Virus record (IMG/VR): IMGVR_UViG_3300027969_002350
Location: 1 to 64,000 of that record
Direction: 5' to 3' (one strand)
Length of the DNA: 64,000 bases
Origin: a virus
Shown here: positions 3 to 6,806 of the stretch, piece by piece
How positions within the stretch are numbered: the first letter of the stretch is position 1
How the letters are laid out: the number at the start of each line of letters is the position of its first letter
The notes under the pieces: model-generated
Told to the model about the DNA's origin: nothing
Database searches by the model: none
What the model saw: the letters and a program-made list of their open reading frames with translations, nothing else
Position numbers and translations under genes: made by a program

Positions 3-1538
3 TCAGTCACGGAAGCATTTGACCAACCCTATAAAATACTTCGATGGGAAAAGGGTGACTTCGGTGATGTAGACGCAATAGCACGATTAGATGACAACAC
101 CTTTCTAAGTATTATGTTCAACAAGGGATTTAGTCAAGGTACAAAAGAAGAAGCATGGAGTGTTGAGTTTTATAGAAACAACAGCCAAGAAGTCACAGGA
201 GAAGGTGATGCACAACGTGTGTTCGCCACTGTGATAAGTGCTATACAAACATTTATTGAAAAGTACAAACCTAATAAAATAACCTTTTCAGCGAGTAAAG
301 AAGTTGAAGATGGACAAAACTCACAAAGCAGAGCAAGATTATATGACAGTTTAGTTCAGCGTTACGCAAGGTCCTGGGGCTTTAGAGCATTTCGTGCTGA
401 CACTGGTAACAAAGTTATCTACGAATTAAGTAGATTAAAGCCTATTGTTGACAAACCTGTGGCGGAAGGCTCTTGGAAAAAGCCCAAGTTTAATACTGAC
501 ACCGTGGTATATGACGGTGCAAAAGCAAACGGTATATCTATTTTTTCAGCAGGATATCACCCTGATATTGAAACAGCATGGATTGAAGCAATAAAATCTG
601 TTAAGCCAGGTGCGGGTGCCACTATGGTTAAATCATTTGAGCAGTGGGCAAAGTCTCAAGGTGCAAAGACTATTAGAGCCGAAGCACTTCAGCCCAGTTT
701 GAATTTTTGGAAAAAAATGGGGTTTGATGTTGTTGGTAATCCGTCTAGTAAGAACAGGGTGCCGATCGAAAAACATATTGGCCAGCAAGATGTGGCAGAA
801 AATATCAACACTATGAATTTTGAAGAAGGTGATTGTCCTATTTTCGCTATTGCTTTACATCGTTTATCCAAATTGCCATTAATGGCATTAATTGAGTATA
901 ATGAACAAGTGGGAAGTACAGTATTAATTCACGCCTATGTAAAACTTAATAATCAATGGCGTATTGATGCTAGTGGAGAAACTGATGTTAATTGGATGTT
1001 ACAAAAATATCCTAACAATGGTAACGCAGAAGAAATAGAAATAAGCGAAAACAATTTAATTAAATTAGGGTATGGTAAAAATAAATGCCCTATGCTACAA
1101 CAAGTTCTTCCACATGCTAAAGAAGTTTTACAAGATATAGAACTAAATGAAAACTTTGCAGATGGTAAAGTAAAAGGTAAAAGCCGTCCCGGGCGTGTAA
1201 AACGCAGTGGTGCAAGCTGTGACGGAAGTGTCTCAGATCTAAGATCAAAAGCAAAAGATGCCAGTGGCGAACGTGCCAAAATGTATCACTGGTGTGCTAA
1301 CATGAAAAGCGGCCGTGCTAAAAACGAATCTGAAATGTTAGAAGATTTAAACGTTATATGGAAAGATGTATTGGAAGCTGGCGTGTATAAAGGTTATCCC
1401 TGTACTAAAGACTGTAGCGGACATGCCGCAGGCGATCGTTGGGCAGATGCTAGAAATATAACTGACCCTAATCAATGTCCTTACAGTAATAACAGTTTCT
1501 GGGAAGGTTGTCTAGCGCATACCGATGAACAAGAATAA
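3..1538 (+). CDS. Partial CDS: GNAT-like domain protein, probable virion/head-associated
   Basis: The frame is open from base 3, so the gene begins upstream of the window and its true N-terminus is missing; the first internal ATG (114) has no ribosome site. Around base 600-740 the protein carries a GNAT-acetyltransferase-like tail (GATMVKSFEQWAKSQGA, then LNFWKKMGFDVVG). Near the C-terminus is a basic Cys-containing module (GKSRPGRVKRSGASC, then MYHWCANMKSG), which I recall from other marine T4-like phage proteins. It is followed directly by a late promoter and by genes with capsid-targeting-like leaders, so a late virion role is likely but inferred. Acetyl-CoA binding is not proven. Confidence 0.75.
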   Translation, partial: SVTEAFDQPYKILRWEKGDFGDVDAIARLDDNTFLSIMFNKGFSQGTKEEAWSVEFYRNNSQEVTGEGDAQRVFATVISAIQTFIEKYKPNKITFSASKEVEDGQNSQSRARLYDSLVQRYARSWGFRAFRADTGNKVIYELSRLKPIVDKPVAEGSWKKPKFNTDTVVYDGAKANGISIFSAGYHPDIETAWIEAIKSVKPGAGATMVKSFEQWAKSQGAKTIRAEALQPSLNFWKKMGFDVVGNPSSKNRVPIEKHIGQQDVAENINTMNFEEGDCPIFAIALHRLSKLPLMALIEYNEQVGSTVLIHAYVKLNNQWRIDASGETDVNWMLQKYPNNGNAEEIEISENNLIKLGYGKNKCPMLQQVLPHAKEVLQDIELNENFADGKVKGKSRPGRVKRSGASCDGSVSDLRSKAKDASGERAKMYHWCANMKSGRAKNESEMLEDLNVIWKDVLEAGVYKGYPCTKDCSGHAAGDRWADARNITDPNQCPYSNNSFWEGCLAHTDEQE

Positions 1539-1540
1539 CA

Positions 1541-1548
1541 TATAAATA
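1541..1548 (+). promoter_or_regulatory. T4-type late promoter octamer
   Basis: TATAAATA, an exact match to the T4 late promoter consensus, lies 7 nt before the ATG at 1556 and just after the upstream stop codon. Confidence 0.7.
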
Positions 1549-1555
1549 TACTATT

Positions 1556-2920
1556 ATGCGATTATTAGACCTTAAACAACTTACCGAAGCGGCATTAGAC
1601 GTTGATGAACTTAAAAAGTACGAAGATGAAGTATCGTCTCCTACTCCATATCTACGTGCTAATAAATTTTTAAGTAAGATTGAACGCAATGAAGAATTTG
1701 AATTAGTAGGCGGAGAAAAGGTTATAATTAAACCAGAAGAATATAATAGATTATTACAAATATTTAAAGCAGACACAGTAAAAGGCCAAACAGTAAGTAT
1801 TCAATTGGCCAACGGACAAACCAAACGTTTAACACAATTTCAAAAAACAACAGACTTAGGTGGCAAAGGCGGCGGCGGTGCAGGACTGGCCAATCGAGGC
1901 GAAGCCGCAGAAGGCATATTGGGTGCTAGTTTATTTGCTAAATTAATTGCTAGAACACGTGGCAAAATAGATACAATCAATCCTACAAATATCTGGAACA
2001 TCATTGATACGTTGAAGCAAACACAGGAAGATCATTATTCTATACAAATTAAAGATGCTACTAAAAACGTTGCCAGAGACAGTATTCAATTTACATTAAA
2101 ATTAAAACCAGGACCATACAAAGACATAATGGATCCTAAGAAACGAAGTTTACTTACCAGCGAAATTAATAGTGCTGTTGCGTATGCTAACAGCGCAGAC
2201 GCACAAGAATACTGTGAGTATTTTTATCTCAACGGCAAGCCCGATGTTATCCATGTTATTACGGACGGCATCAGTGGCAGTACAACAAAGAAATCAGACG
2301 TTGAAGTTATTACAACAGATCCAACAACCGGCAAATCAGTGCGCCAACAACTTAATATTAGCCTTAAAGCAGGTAGTGATCAAATGGGTCAAGTTGGACA
2401 GGGAGAAAAAGGCGAAGAGTTTGACGCACAAAAGAAACTATGGAATTCCTTTGGCATTGACATCGAATCAAGTAGAAACGAATTTGATACTCTAGTCTCT
2501 GAACAAGGATTACCAGTAGGCATTGAAAGAATATATAGAGATGCTACCGTATTCTTACAAGACTTACTAGCAGGTAGTTTTGATGATGCTGAATACTTGT
2601 TCTTAAAAGATTTAGTCAAAGGCATTGATTATTTTGCTACATTAAACGATCCAACCGTATTGCTTGTTAGCTTTGAAGGCGGCAATTACGAAGTATTGAG
2701 TTTTGCTAATTTAGAAAAAAAACTAAAAAACATTGATTTAGACGCTAGATACAACGATAAAGCCGCCAATCCTCAAATTGAAATATATGATATAAACAGC
2801 GGTATGCAACTATTTAGGATCAGAAGCAAAAAAGAAAAAGTCAAAGGCGACAAGTGGTACATTCGCAATTACATTGAAAAAGGTCCATTGCTTTCAGAGT
2901 TAACCAGCATCAAGAAGTAA
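1556..2920 (+). CDS. Putative internal head protein with capsid-targeting-like leader
   Basis: 454 aa, no family recognised for the body. The N-terminus MRLLDLKQLTEA resembles the T4 capsid-targeting sequence (a short amphipathic leader of internal head proteins) and contains LTE, fitting the (L/I)xE cleavage rule of the gp21 prohead protease. A Gly-rich patch lies near residues 101-107 and the remainder is a mixed soluble sequence with no membrane segment. It is expressed from a late promoter 7 nt upstream and precedes three more genes with similar leaders. Packaging in the capsid is an inference from leader and promoter only. Confidence 0.75.
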   Translation: MRLLDLKQLTEAALDVDELKKYEDEVSSPTPYLRANKFLSKIERNEEFELVGGEKVIIKPEEYNRLLQIFKADTVKGQTVSIQLANGQTKRLTQFQKTTDLGGKGGGGAGLANRGEAAEGILGASLFAKLIARTRGKIDTINPTNIWNIIDTLKQTQEDHYSIQIKDATKNVARDSIQFTLKLKPGPYKDIMDPKKRSLLTSEINSAVAYANSADAQEYCEYFYLNGKPDVIHVITDGISGSTTKKSDVEVITTDPTTGKSVRQQLNISLKAGSDQMGQVGQGEKGEEFDAQKKLWNSFGIDIESSRNEFDTLVSEQGLPVGIERIYRDATVFLQDLLAGSFDDAEYLFLKDLVKGIDYFATLNDPTVLLVSFEGGNYEVLSFANLEKKLKNIDLDARYNDKAANPQIEIYDINSGMQLFRIRSKKEKVKGDKWYIRNYIEKGPLLSELTSIKK

Positions 2921-2942
2921 TACGATATATTGACATAAAATG

Positions 2943-2950
2943 GATAAATA
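2943..2950 (+). promoter_or_regulatory. T4-type late promoter octamer
   Basis: GATAAATA, one mismatch from TATAAATA, only 5 nt before the ATG at 2956. A start this close to the box would leave almost no 5' leader. Confidence 0.6.
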
Positions 2951-2955
2951 ATCAT

Positions 2956-3150
2956 ATGAAAATAAAAGAACTTATCATTGAAGACGGCGGCATAAGTGCT
3001 GGTAGTTTTGCCAACGCACCTGCCGGCAATTTGTTTGCTGTACCAATGAAACGTAATATGCCACGTAAGCGTCCAAAGAAGGAAGCTGAAGAATTCAAAA
3101 CTAAAAAAGATAAGTCTAATGTTTTAGAAACTGGAACTAAAAATGGATAA
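2956..3150 (+). CDS. Small basic protein with capsid-targeting-like leader
   Basis: 64 aa. Begins MKIKELIIEDGG, with IIE matching the (L/I)xE prohead protease consensus; after predicted removal of the first nine residues about 55 aa remain, rich in Lys/Arg with a patch PRKRPKKEAEE, so DNA contact inside the head is plausible. It overlaps the next gene by 8 nt, suggesting coupled translation. No database family is recognised. It sits behind its own late promoter. Confidence 0.65.
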   Translation: MKIKELIIEDGGISAGSFANAPAGNLFAVPMKRNMPRKRPKKEAEEFKTKKDKSNVLETGTKNG

Positions 3151-4003
3151 ACAAAGAGCACGTCAACTTTATGAACTAGCAGATCGTTTAAGTAAATTAG
3201 ACGTTAATACTCTATCCGAAGAACAACTATCACATCGTAATACTATGATTGCTAAATTGCAAGAAGAAGTTACAACAATTAAAGAGATGGCCAGCAAGAT
3301 TATATCTGTAGATGATAAGCACGGATTCATTACAGTTATTGTACAAGCACCAGATGGCAGTAAAAGAGCAATGGCCAATGACAATCCAAATTACATCCAA
3401 AAATGGTTACAAAAATATGGATTAACTCTTCCACAGAGTATTACAAGTCAGTTCGTAGGCGTACACGAAGAATTCAACGGTGAATACGATGACGAAGCAG
3501 GTATGGTTCAAAGCAATCTACGCACAATGGCTCGTGCTGTAAACGGTTTACTAGATACCATAGAAGACAATGACAACTTGCCAGAGTGGGCACAGGAAAA
3601 AATTGCCAAAGCAGAAATGATGACAACCAGTGTTTGGGATTATTTACTAAGTCAAAAAGAACAAGGCATGGATCCTAAAGTAACAGAGGCCAAGCTGCCA
3701 GAAGTTGATTCACTTGTTACTGATACAGAAGCTGTAATGAAAGAATTTCAAATTGATGCTGAACAAGCATTAAAAACTGTGCTAGGAAACAGAGAGTATA
3801 ATAGCCGCCGTGGCTATTACAGTTTCTATATTAGACAAATTATTGCTAGATTGAATCAACAAGGTGTAACTGAAACTAAAAAGCCAAGTCCTCGTCTTAC
3901 GCCAGTTGACATGAAAAAATCTGAGCCGGTCAGTGAAGAAATAAATACAGAAGCATACGAAAGACTACAAAAGGTTTTCGCATTTAAGAATTACGAAAGT
4001 TAA
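3143..4003 (+). CDS. Conserved phage protein, unknown function
   Basis: 286 aa, soluble, charged and predicted mostly helical (residues 1-60 look like a coiled coil: MDKQRARQLYELADRLSKL). Its start lies inside the previous gene and it is followed after 2 nt by another leader-bearing gene, so it belongs to the same late unit. There is no capsid-targeting-like leader at its own N-terminus. It contains a section resembling motifs seen in other marine T4-like phage proteins (NREYNSRRGYYSFYIRQII), but I cannot assign a function. Confidence 0.7.
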   Translation: MDKQRARQLYELADRLSKLDVNTLSEEQLSHRNTMIAKLQEEVTTIKEMASKIISVDDKHGFITVIVQAPDGSKRAMANDNPNYIQKWLQKYGLTLPQSITSQFVGVHEEFNGEYDDEAGMVQSNLRTMARAVNGLLDTIEDNDNLPEWAQEKIAKAEMMTTSVWDYLLSQKEQGMDPKVTEAKLPEVDSLVTDTEAVMKEFQIDAEQALKTVLGNREYNSRRGYYSFYIRQIIARLNQQGVTETKKPSPRLTPVDMKKSEPVSEEINTEAYERLQKVFAFKNYES

Positions 4004-4005
4004 TT

Positions 4006-5253
4006 ATGAAACTATTTGAACTATATCAACAAAATACCCTACAAGGTACAAATAACTTAAAACAGATATCTGAAGCTGTTACCAATAAGACTGGTGCAGT
4101 TATTACTGTAGGCAATACTCAAGTTAAACTTGGCATTAATAGTGCTAGATATGTTTTTAGCTTATATGAAACCGCAGTGGCCAATGGCACCAGCGAACAA
4201 TTCTTAGAAGGCCTTGCTAATCTAAATCCAACAATGGTCATGGAAAATGATAACACAATGCGTCACATTGTCGGCAAGTTCAAGCACGAAGTTAAAAACT
4301 TCTTAGCTGGTCAAGAACTAAGCGATGACTTATATCACGCATTGTTTGACTACTACAGTGACCACGGTGAAATGCCTTATGGTACTATGAAAGGTCGTGA
4401 TGGCGATCCTTATGAATGGGTTCATATGCGTTTTGATCAAGACGTACTTGATTACACTGGCGGTGATAATCAAGATGTTCCGGCATTACCAGCGGCAACA
4501 ATGCCAATGATGCCACGTCAAGAAAGCATGTACGAATCTAAGAAAACAAAAATGAAAGAAGGTTGGGCAGAAATGCAGGCCGACGTTCTTGCTCGTGCAG
4601 AACGTGAAAAGCAAGAAAGAGGCACTGGTAAGTTTGATAAAAAACAAACTAGTACTGGTACTGTTTACAGCCGCAAATATAATGCAGATACAGGCCAATC
4701 AATTGAGCCAACTAAAGATGCAGAAGGTAAATCACCAGTTAAGCGCAGTCGCGGGCGCCCAAGTGCTGCCGCTAGTTCTACCGAAGGTGGTACAAGTTTT
4801 GCAGATTACAACAGTTGGTATCACAAGTCTAAGCGTACACATAGTGAACGCAAGATTGTTGGTAGCAGAGCAGGTGCTGTAGCAGTTGTTCCAAAAGGTA
4901 AAAAATATCTAGTAGTAGGTAATTGGGAAAACGATTCTGGTATGTTGTTTGATGCACCAAGTGAAATACTGTCATTGGAAGATTTAAAAGCATTTAAGAG
5001 TGCTAAAGGACGTCCAAAGAAAATCCGTGAATGGATTGAAACATTACGTTTTGTATCCGAAGGTGAAACAACTAAAACATCAACCGGTCTTAAGCATAGT
5101 GCTAAAGGCAAATATGGTGCAGACGAAAACGAACCAGAAGATGAAGAACAACTAGACAAAGCTGGCACTAACCGTAGAGAAAAAGCTATGGGCGTTAAGT
5201 GGGATCGCGAAAAGAAATGGGGCGGCGGCATTAAAGTTGAAAGCAAGAAGTAA
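4006..5253 (+). CDS. Putative head-associated protein, leader MKLFELYQ
   Basis: 415 aa. Begins MKLFELYQQNTLQ and contains ISE at residues 22-24, a possible (L/I)xE processing point later than in its neighbours. The middle (about 180-270) is highly charged and low in complexity, with a basic KRSRGRPSAAASS stretch resembling an AT-hook core (RGRP), which would fit DNA contact. The C-terminus is Lys/Gly/Trp rich (WDREKKWGGGIK). Starts 2 nt after the previous stop and overlaps the next start by 1 nt (TAATG). Function unknown; head packaging is inferred. Confidence 0.7.
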   Translation: MKLFELYQQNTLQGTNNLKQISEAVTNKTGAVITVGNTQVKLGINSARYVFSLYETAVANGTSEQFLEGLANLNPTMVMENDNTMRHIVGKFKHEVKNFLAGQELSDDLYHALFDYYSDHGEMPYGTMKGRDGDPYEWVHMRFDQDVLDYTGGDNQDVPALPAATMPMMPRQESMYESKKTKMKEGWAEMQADVLARAEREKQERGTGKFDKKQTSTGTVYSRKYNADTGQSIEPTKDAEGKSPVKRSRGRPSAAASSTEGGTSFADYNSWYHKSKRTHSERKIVGSRAGAVAVVPKGKKYLVVGNWENDSGMLFDAPSEILSLEDLKAFKSAKGRPKKIREWIETLRFVSEGETTKTSTGLKHSAKGKYGADENEPEDEEQLDKAGTNRREKAMGVKWDREKKWGGGIKVESKK

Positions 5254-5669
5254 TGCGTATCTCTGAAATTCTTGCCGAGAGTTGGAGTCAAAAGTATAAA
5301 AGCAGTATCAATTGTTCTCATCCTAAAGGCTTTAGTCAAAAGGCTCATTGTGCTGGCAAAAAGAAACACAACGAGTCAATTGAAACAGAAATGGTCTGCG
5401 AAGACTGCGGTATGTGCCAAACACACGGCGACAACCTAGTAGAAGTCAAACAACGGTTAGATGCCAAATGTTGGACAGGTAAGCACAAAGAAGGCACTAA
5501 GATCAAAGGCGGTGTTCGTGTAAACAACTGTGTACCTAATGAAAGCCTAGATGCTAATCAAAAACGTGTAGGACAAGTTGGTGGTGAAGAAAAAGCAAAA
5601 AAGATAGGACAAGTTCTTGCTAAACCTCCTAAGCAACATCCTTTCAAAGGTCGATTGGTCGGCGAATAA
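5253..5669 (+). CDS. Cys-rich small protein with capsid-targeting-like leader
   Basis: 138 aa. Begins MRISEILAES; LAE fits the gp21 (L/I)xE cleavage rule. Two Cys modules follow: CSHPKGFSQKAHCAGKKK (about 22-39) and CWTGKHKEGTKIKGGVRV ending NNCVP, separated by CEDCGMC, which could bind a metal. These modules look like ones repeated in other marine T4-like phage virion proteins (from memory, not searched). The start overlaps the upstream stop by one base, so translation is probably coupled. Confidence 0.7.
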   Translation: MRISEILAESWSQKYKSSINCSHPKGFSQKAHCAGKKKHNESIETEMVCEDCGMCQTHGDNLVEVKQRLDAKCWTGKHKEGTKIKGGVRVNNCVPNESLDANQKRVGQVGGEEKAKKIGQVLAKPPKQHPFKGRLVGE

Positions 5670-6119: not shown

Positions 6120-6560
6120 ATGGATGAATTAGTACAAGCAATGAAAAAGGCACTGGCAGATACATTTGCCTTTTATTTAAAAGCACAGGGCTTTCACTGG
6201 AACGTTGAAGGTCCTAATTTCCCACAATATCACGCATTGTTTGATACTATATACAACGAAGTCTATGGAAGCATAGATCGTTTTGCAGAAGAAATTCGTG
6301 CCATGGATGCGTATGCTCCTGCTAGTTTTGCTCGCTTCAGTGAACTAACTAGTCTAGAAGATGAGATACAAATTTTAAATGCACAAGGCATGCTGGCAAA
6401 ATTATTAGCAGACAATGATGTTGTATTGGCTAGTCTTGAGCAAGCATATGAATTAGCAGAAGTTGCACACAATCATGGACTAAGCAACTTCTTAGCTGAA
6501 CGTCAAGATGCACATAAAAAACATGCTTGGCAATTAAAAGCAACTCTAAAACAAAGATAA
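6120..6560 (+). CDS. dps: Dps-like ferritin (DNA-protecting iron-storage protein)
   Basis: 146 aa, close to the usual length of Dps. Dps assembles as a 12-mer that oxidises Fe(II) with peroxide and can shield DNA. The inter-subunit ferroxidase ligands are visible: H26 in FHWNVEGPNF, H38 in YHALFDTIY with D42, and D53/E57 in SIDRFAEEIR. No long basic N-terminal tail is present, so direct DNA binding is less certain. It stands behind a late promoter, which suggests expression late in infection, possibly to limit oxidative damage or for packaging. A phage copy is unusual but the family assignment is firm. Confidence 0.92.
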   Translation: MDELVQAMKKALADTFAFYLKAQGFHWNVEGPNFPQYHALFDTIYNEVYGSIDRFAEEIRAMDAYAPASFARFSELTSLEDEIQILNAQGMLAKLLADNDVVLASLEQAYELAEVAHNHGLSNFLAERQDAHKKHAWQLKATLKQR

Positions 6561-6806
6561 ATGAATCCTTTAATTAAAGAGTTAGTTCGGACAGAACTAA
6601 CTAAAAACCAAATACTTGCTCTTGACTCTTTTATCGCAGACAGAGGTGAGGAAATATTCAAAAACAGCAATCTACTCAAAGTAATCAACAAAGGCGATTT
6701 AAATTCCGTTCCTGTTGAACTTGCAAAATGGGTCGTAGATTCTGGAAGACTTCGTCCAGAACTCGCAGAACTTCGCCAAAAAGAAATCTCCTTGTTTACC
6801 AAATAA
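6561..6806 (+). CDS. Lysozyme (GH24) C-terminal-half-like protein
   Basis: 81 aa. The order of motifs resembles the C-terminal half of phage GH24 lysozymes: ALDSFIADRG, then LLKVINKGDLNSVPVELAKW, then GRLRPELAELRQKEISLF, equivalent to the final helices ending in the RR..E..LF tail. The N-terminal part that carries the catalytic Glu is absent, and the ATG follows the Dps stop codon directly, so there is no room for it. It is therefore either a degenerate remnant or a reused fold without hydrolase activity. Similarity was judged by eye. Confidence 0.5.
   Translation: MNPLIKELVRTELTKNQILALDSFIADRGEEIFKNSNLLKVINKGDLNSVPVELAKWVVDSGRLRPELAELRQKEISLFTK

Follow-up and report, generated by a model that had tools for sequence, protein, structure and literature searches.

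Leader-bearing modular proteins of T4-like phages are probably packaged and diced by a prohead protease

The window analyzed here is the first 64 kb of IMG/VR virus record IMGVR_UViG_3300027969_002350, which spans 90,493 bp and is itself a fragment. The first 5,669 nucleotides (nt) of the window encode a run of proteins, four of which begin with short leaders, divided into modules by hxE tripeptides (h being L, I, V, M, or F), a relaxed form of the L/I-X-E rule by which the T4 prohead protease gp21 cleaves (PMC9026906). These genes quite probably encode capsid-targeted polyproteins, which a gp21-type protease would dice into small proteins that are packaged and, probably, injected. The sequences show leaders that are clustered and conserved, a protease in related phages, modules bordered by hxE, and an exchange of modules at the peptide QGVAEG; packaging, cutting, injection, and what the modules do are inferred. 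The genes, promoters, and joints are as follows, a slash marking a predicted cut or a module border.

3..1538 (+), frame 3: polyprotein gene, its 5' end truncated by the record start; opens SVTE/AFDQPYKILRW, followed by a DUF6934-like part, PVAE/G, an acetyltransferase-like part, LNE/NFADGKVKGKSRPGRVKRSGASC, and VLE/AGVYKGYPCTKDCSGH
459..467 (+): internal joint VAE/G of the same gene; DNA word GTGGCGGAAGG
1541-1548 (+): T4-late-promoter-like TATAAATA, 7 nt upstream of the ATG at 1556
1556..2920 (+): 454-aa protein; leader MRLLDLKQLTE/AALD, LTE/A at 1580-1588, predicted cut after nt 1588; cargo a domain of unknown fold with the core KxDVxV...N[IV]SLKxG...Q
2943-2950 (+): late-promoter-like GATAAATA, 5 nt upstream of the ATG at 2956
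2956..3150 (+): 64-aa basic protein; leader MKIKELIIE/DGGI, IIE/D at 2974-2982, predicted cut after nt 2982, followed by DGGISAGSFANAPAGN
3143..4003 (+): 286-aa polyprotein; start MDKQRARQLYELADRLSKLDVNTLSE/E, unlike the four leaders, with a possible longer leader ending LSE (3212-3220); joints VHE/E (3461-3469), LPE/V (3695-3703), and VTE/T (3866-3874)
4006..5253 (+): 415-aa protein; leader MKLFELYQQNTLQGTNNLKQISE/AVTN, ISE/A at 4066-4074, predicted cut after nt 4074; AT-hook-like GRP stretches; later joints MYE/S (4528-4536) and VSE/G (5053-5061)
5253..5669 (+): 138-aa Cys-rich basic protein; leader MRISEILAE/SWSQ, LAE/S at 5271-5279, predicted cut after nt 5279; module WSQKYKSSINCSHPKGFSQKAHCAG, joint LVE (5436-5444), module VKQRLDAKCWTGKHKEGTKIKGG, then QKRVGQVGGEEKAKK

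The four leaders with (L/I)xE that the original prediction placed near the start of the window are all present, ending in LTE, IIE, ISE, and LAE, with the correction that the ISE of the third occupies residues 21 to 23 and not 22 to 24. Its description of the cargo as basic, Cys-rich, and AT-hook-like also holds, with 7 Cys and a net charge of +9 in the 138-aa protein and AT-hook-like stretches in the 415-aa protein. Pfam searches with the leader-bearing window proteins gave no match above threshold, and Rfam and tRNA scans of the window gave no matches. The true N terminus of the 3..1538 gene lies outside the window because the record start truncates the gene; elsewhere its modules sit behind leaders, as in MRATEFITE/AFDKPYELLRW (locus L134), MKIKEIVE/AGIFRGY (L006), and MRLYELFE/AGLTYRGY (L157).

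In its general form, the leader pattern spans 8 to 24 residues and reads M[KR]xx[DEQ][LFI]..hxE. The main comparison genome was G001, a near-complete relative of 235,561 bp with 69% identity in the 454-aa protein. Nine of its 286 genes (≥60 aa) match the strict pattern, compared to a mean of 0.32 in shuffled N termini (maximum of 3 in 500 shuffles). Eight of the nine fall within a 21-kb cluster (87.5 to 108.8 kb), and the ninth is carried by a small portal-adjacent gene of the head module; the leaders are conserved in orthologs. Chance might be invoked, since (L/I)xE is a weak motif, many phage proteins start with MK, and hxE stands at 2.2% of positions, but the shuffles, the clustering, the conservation in orthologs, and a 25-fold enrichment of hxE at module joints refute this account and leave it a negligible probability.

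Similar leaders on unrelated cargo within one phage, a mark of T4-type capsid targeting sequences (CTSs), are found in the G001 cluster on eight different proteins. They include a cytidylyltransferase-like protein (weak Pfam match) and a DUF6267 protein, together with kinase-like, HNH-like, and acetyltransferase-like proteins recognized by inspection without Pfam support; the counterpart of this cluster in a second near relative, G002, carries amidoligases. A search of related phages for one leader type on unrelated cargo, proposed in the original prediction, found it repeatedly. Where homologs of the 454-aa protein have no leader, their sequence begins just where the cut is predicted (window, LTE/AALDVDELKKYE; Desulfovibrio phage SRB7757, MASLSPKELMKYE; ACG-2014f, MAALSSTSPGQLGKYV). 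The isolated cyanophage SynMITS9220M01 encodes a module of the window's 138-aa gene as a whole small protein, MKTFKQFQE/GWSNKYKKSIDCSNPKGFSQRAHCAGRKKK, and cyanophage Bellamy has this short module behind MKSFKQFQE. The cytidylyltransferase SSM1_190 (T4-GC190) of S-SM1 has a leader-like N terminus, MKKFSAFLNE/AERS, and excerpts of PMC3037559 report this protein in virions by mass spectrometry. The leaders are thus very probably T4-type CTSs that both target the proteins and are cut. As a separate observation, the gene just upstream of the leaderless homolog in SRB7757 (L003:14215-14964) has a leader-like start, MKSFRQFILEYKG.

The protease itself is present in the near relatives. Peptidase_S77 was identified in G001 (E 5e-25) and G002 (E 2e-25) within the series portal, gp67-like, gp68-like, gp21 protease, gp22 scaffold, and gp23 major capsid protein, and the G001 protease matches the solved T4 gp21 structure 5JBL (E 4e-10). 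Among 13 contigs of at least 100 kb that hold the DNA word for QGVAEG or orthologs of window genes, gp23 occurs in 8 and the protease in the same 8; the 5 with neither are probably fragments. In all 8, an (L/I)xE site whose middle residue varies (LAE, LLE, LKE, LTE, or IME) is retained where maturation of the capsid protein is expected, and the next residue is N or S. The leader ends of the window follow the same rule, with L or I at P3, any residue at P2, and Glu at P1, and the sequence past some leaders resembles the capsid site (MNNEFKAKQYKDATVYTLE/SASGGSTGAGSVA, compared to capsid IME/SASAGATQAGNVA). The peptides MRISEILAESWSQK and KKQGVAEGSLNE are predicted substrates of the G001 protease.

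The original prediction placed cleavage-type sites at N termini, where they do occur; beyond that claim, they also lie inside the proteins and mark the borders of modules. The joints in the window genes are VTE, VAE, LNE, VLE, VHE, LPE, MYE, VSE, and LVE. Among loci found via the QGVAEG word, 222 joints without GVAE have Glu at P1 in 64% (background, 6.8%) and [LIVMF]xE at 122 (55%, compared to 2.2%); P2 varies freely, as it does at T4 gp21 sites. Judging from the sequences, a given module can have either a leader end or an internal joint in front of it: WSQKYKSSINCSHPK follows the leaders MRISEILAE (window), MKIREVINE (L069), MKLSEIIIE (L122), and MRSSEFVFE (L134), and it follows internal QGVAE/E in L065, L076, and L111. 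At the 138-aa locus of close relatives, the leader runs straight onto the second module (L015, MRISEILSE/MKCWPGH) or the third (L016, MKINDIINE/GLDADQKRVG), while in L013 and L014 the second module is fused to the neighboring gene. The G001 ortholog of the 286-aa polyprotein has two additional modules, inserted at a QGV[AT]E joint.

The commonest joint is a near-invariant DNA word, the 17-mer CAAGGTGTGGCGGAAGG encoding QGVAEG, whose exact sequence was found in at least 120 stretches of viral contigs and whose codons are identical each time among the QGVAEG joints of G001 cargo proteins. Across 80 loci, frame 0 on the copy's own strand is open for 103 of 103 copies, and 23 of 23 spacings are multiples of three; with both strands counted, the longest reading frame has 101 of the 103 copies in its frame 0. 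The codons GGT GTG GCG GAA spell 161 of 203 GVAE peptides, as well as 58 of 100 GVAE copies independent of the search word, compared to 0.6% expected from codon usage. One synonymous spelling, used as a control, occurred in 49 stretches with 47 of 50 copies in frame, indicating that the peptide is conserved as well, and a second (36 stretches) showed the scattered frames of a chance background. Comparison of the flanks of the copies yielded 51 pairs alike upstream only, 71 downstream only, and 2 on both sides, with DNA identity of up to 99%. This excess of one-flank sharing (122 pairs) over sharing of both flanks indicates that modules, often 50 to 70 aa long, were swapped at QGVAEG, that these moves are recent, and that the modules end at this joint.

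It could be argued that the DNA word is primary, an element that is mobile or recombinogenic and enters genes in frame, its translation merely happening to supply the joint Glu. The dominance of a single codon spelling and the shuffling at the word would fit such an element, but the conserved stretch ends at about 20 bp, nearly all copies share frame and strand, and hxE is kept at joints spelled otherwise, which makes this origin improbable. A role of QGVAEG as a bacterial or general motif was rejected, as a 21-base version gave 5 single matches, close to the chance level, across 257 Gb of sequence from bacterial and archaeal genomes; a search for the peptide in the literature collection consulted found nothing relevant.

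Another question is whether the internal joints are cut. The leaders alone might be removed, with QGVAEG-type joints serving as flexible linkers or recombination joints in multidomain proteins packaged whole, in the manner of polyvalent proteins. Such packaging has precedent in the N4 virion RNA polymerase (PMC5512222), and QGVAEG has Val at P3, where the capsid-protein sites have Leu or Ile. However, a hydrophobic-x-Glu is retained at joints that have lost the QGVAEG spelling, the same module follows leader ends or internal joints interchangeably, and internal joints directly precede twin-arginine translocation (Tat) signals. Tat signals stand right behind leader cuts in L059 (minus strand, 6024) and L077 (minus strand, 7525), both on what appear by inspection to be GH19-like cell wall hydrolases, and deep in polyproteins behind QGVAE or LEE joints in L140 (minus strand, 1868; about residue 609) and L095 (about residue 467), internal positions at which they would function only after cutting. 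In a scan for Tat signals with a hydrophobic stretch, 3 of 4 matches lay behind hxE. Uncut joints are therefore unlikely, and internal dicing is probable.

The proteins might instead be mainly prohead core (scaffold), diced and expelled like T4 gp67 and gp68, without a role in the host. In T4, the core proteins are cleaved into pieces (PMC9026906), and the gp67-like gene beside the portal bears a similar leader, MKLFEVKHEDG. Against this stand the enzyme-like nature of many cargoes (amidoligase, cytidylyltransferase-like, DUF6267, and, by inspection, the GH19-like hydrolase with a Tat signal) and a strong variation of gene content among close relatives, unlike that of core proteins; a pure core role is thus quite unlikely. 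For the 454-aa cargo, the predicted structure is mediocre (predicted local distance difference test, 67.6; predicted template modeling score, 0.44), and a PDB search with the model found nothing convincing (best E, 0.02; probability, 0.11); the conserved D..SLK..Q residues allow a guess at a PD-(D/E)xK-like nuclease. Several small, basic, Cys-rich modules would suit nucleic acid or zinc binding. As a side observation, the G002 (L018) ortholog of the 415-aa protein has three consecutive RGRGRPRK-type AT-hooks at the place of two weaker GRP stretches in the window protein.

On the reading of diced, packaged polyproteins, T4-type late promoters would drive late transcription of the cargo genes, and the N-terminal leader would act as a CTS that binds the protein to the prohead core. 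The gp21-type protease would then cut after the hxE of the leader and between modules, so that one precursor would yield several small mature proteins inside the capsid. The mature proteins would enter the host together with the DNA and act there at an early stage, a step that we consider likely if somewhat less secure than the cutting, and in some modules the Tat signal would become N-terminal only once cut. Since hxE sites form both ends of the modules, recombination there, often at the same 17 to 20 bp encoding QGVAEG, would swap, add, or remove modules in frame. We lean slightly toward the broader proposal that CAAGGTGTGGCGGAAGG doubles as recombination joint and prohead protease site in the cassette-built packaged polyproteins of widespread T4-like phages, with some freed modules exported by Tat to the periplasm; one word in both roles would allow the injected cocktail to be rewired without breaking reading frames.

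Several points weigh against this reading. The kinship of the leaders to T4 CTSs rests on pattern and not on alignment score, and the one structure prediction made yielded no fold. The original prediction had proposed confirming a gp21-type protease in the genome; the near relatives have one, but the 90-kb record itself gave no S77 match, a result to be expected if the fragment lacks the head module, though unproven. As the loci were found with the QGVAEG word, the sample of joints is biased toward it; 36% of the non-GVAE joints lack Glu at exactly position -1, some through register errors, and some one-flank pairs rest on short matches. Finally, QGVAEG departs from the gp21 rule at P3, where other joints show L, I, M, or V; its Val, compared to Leu or Ile in the T4 consensus and the capsid sites, means that cutting there may be slow or absent.

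The late promoters claimed before two of the leader genes were located at 7 and 5 nt from the ATGs at 1556 and 2956. Since TATAAATA is not enriched in the window (6 seen, 10.9 expected), only its placement is informative. As an observation in its own right, [TGA]ATAAATA words lie 4 to 7 nt upstream of the ATG in many G001 genes, most commonly at a spacing of exactly 5 (examples at 3038, 23462, 35501, 89725, and 212350 in G001 and at 1541 and 2943 in the window); in other genes, the word lies 13 to 39 nt upstream, often with a Shine-Dalgarno-like AGGA. A spacing of 4 to 7 nt leaves no space for a ribosome-binding site, so late mRNAs may be leaderless in these phages.

Directly after the leader-bearing genes, the window encodes a Dps/ferritin-like protein (6120-6560), adjoined by a gene (6561-6806) that matches only positions 54 to 125 of Phage_lysozyme, its C-terminal half; both are conserved in G001. 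A minus-strand island from about 40,000 to 63,900 of the window, continuing to 80,200 of the record, has by eye the look of radical-SAM, glycosyltransferase, and nucleotide-sugar enzymes and includes tandem paralogs, which is unusual for a T4-like phage.

Of the systems already described, T4 IPI-IPIII and Alt (PMC9026906, PMC5694885) share with these proteins a short N-terminal leader of 7 to 19 residues ending in (L/I)xE, a gp21-type protease in a 20-67-68-21-22-23 series, late promoters, and unrelated cargo behind similar leaders; T4 Alt is cut at both ends (ITE-6 and LTE-619) (PMC9026906, PMC5694885). Here, however, cargo genes are many more, and the cargo is built of modules with several hxE joints inside it. 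Phages exchange these modules at a fixed DNA word, and many of the modules have no relation to the IPs or Alt, no such family being found among PHROGs or Pfam matches of the mature cargo. In SPN3US and phiKZ (PMC5694885, PMC10052503), many head proteins are likewise processed after Glu by a prohead protease, and diverged ejection proteins (gp53/gp54) have similar N termini, but their propeptides are mostly long (often >100 aa) and the sites are A-x-E or S-x-E, in contrast to the short leaders, hxE sites, T4-like head module, and shuffled modules found here. Polyvalent proteins (Iyer et al. 2017, PMC5512222) resemble them in being multidomain, predicted to be packaged and delivered, and frequently shuffled. 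Polyvalent proteins are large enzyme fusions, and some include a metallopeptidase domain of their own (PMC5512222), whereas the modules here are often 50 to 70 aa and end at prohead-protease-like sites. Polyvalent proteins carry several domains with conflict or early-infection functions in one polypeptide; in the multimodule proteins here, few domains of any kind are recognized (amidoligase, cytidylyltransferase-like, and DUF6267). A text search of PMC5512222 found no linker and one mention of a prohead protease. T4-GC190 of S-SM1, a leader-bearing virion protein, differs in having a single cargo and no QGVAEG, and the excerpts of PMC3037559 make no mention of its leader.

The analysis bears on a question that reaches beyond T4 to almost all phages: what is injected with the DNA, and how that repertoire changes. 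With a leader and hxE joints as guides, packaged proteins would be predictable from sequence alone in hundreds of uncultured phages, and the joints mark the exact sites of evolutionary cut-and-paste. If the cutting is true, polyproteins are also processed during prohead maturation, and the modules form a searchable catalog of candidate early host-takeover or counterdefense proteins. These findings suggest that a fast-evolving mixture of proteins is packed into every virion, to be delivered into its bacterial host.

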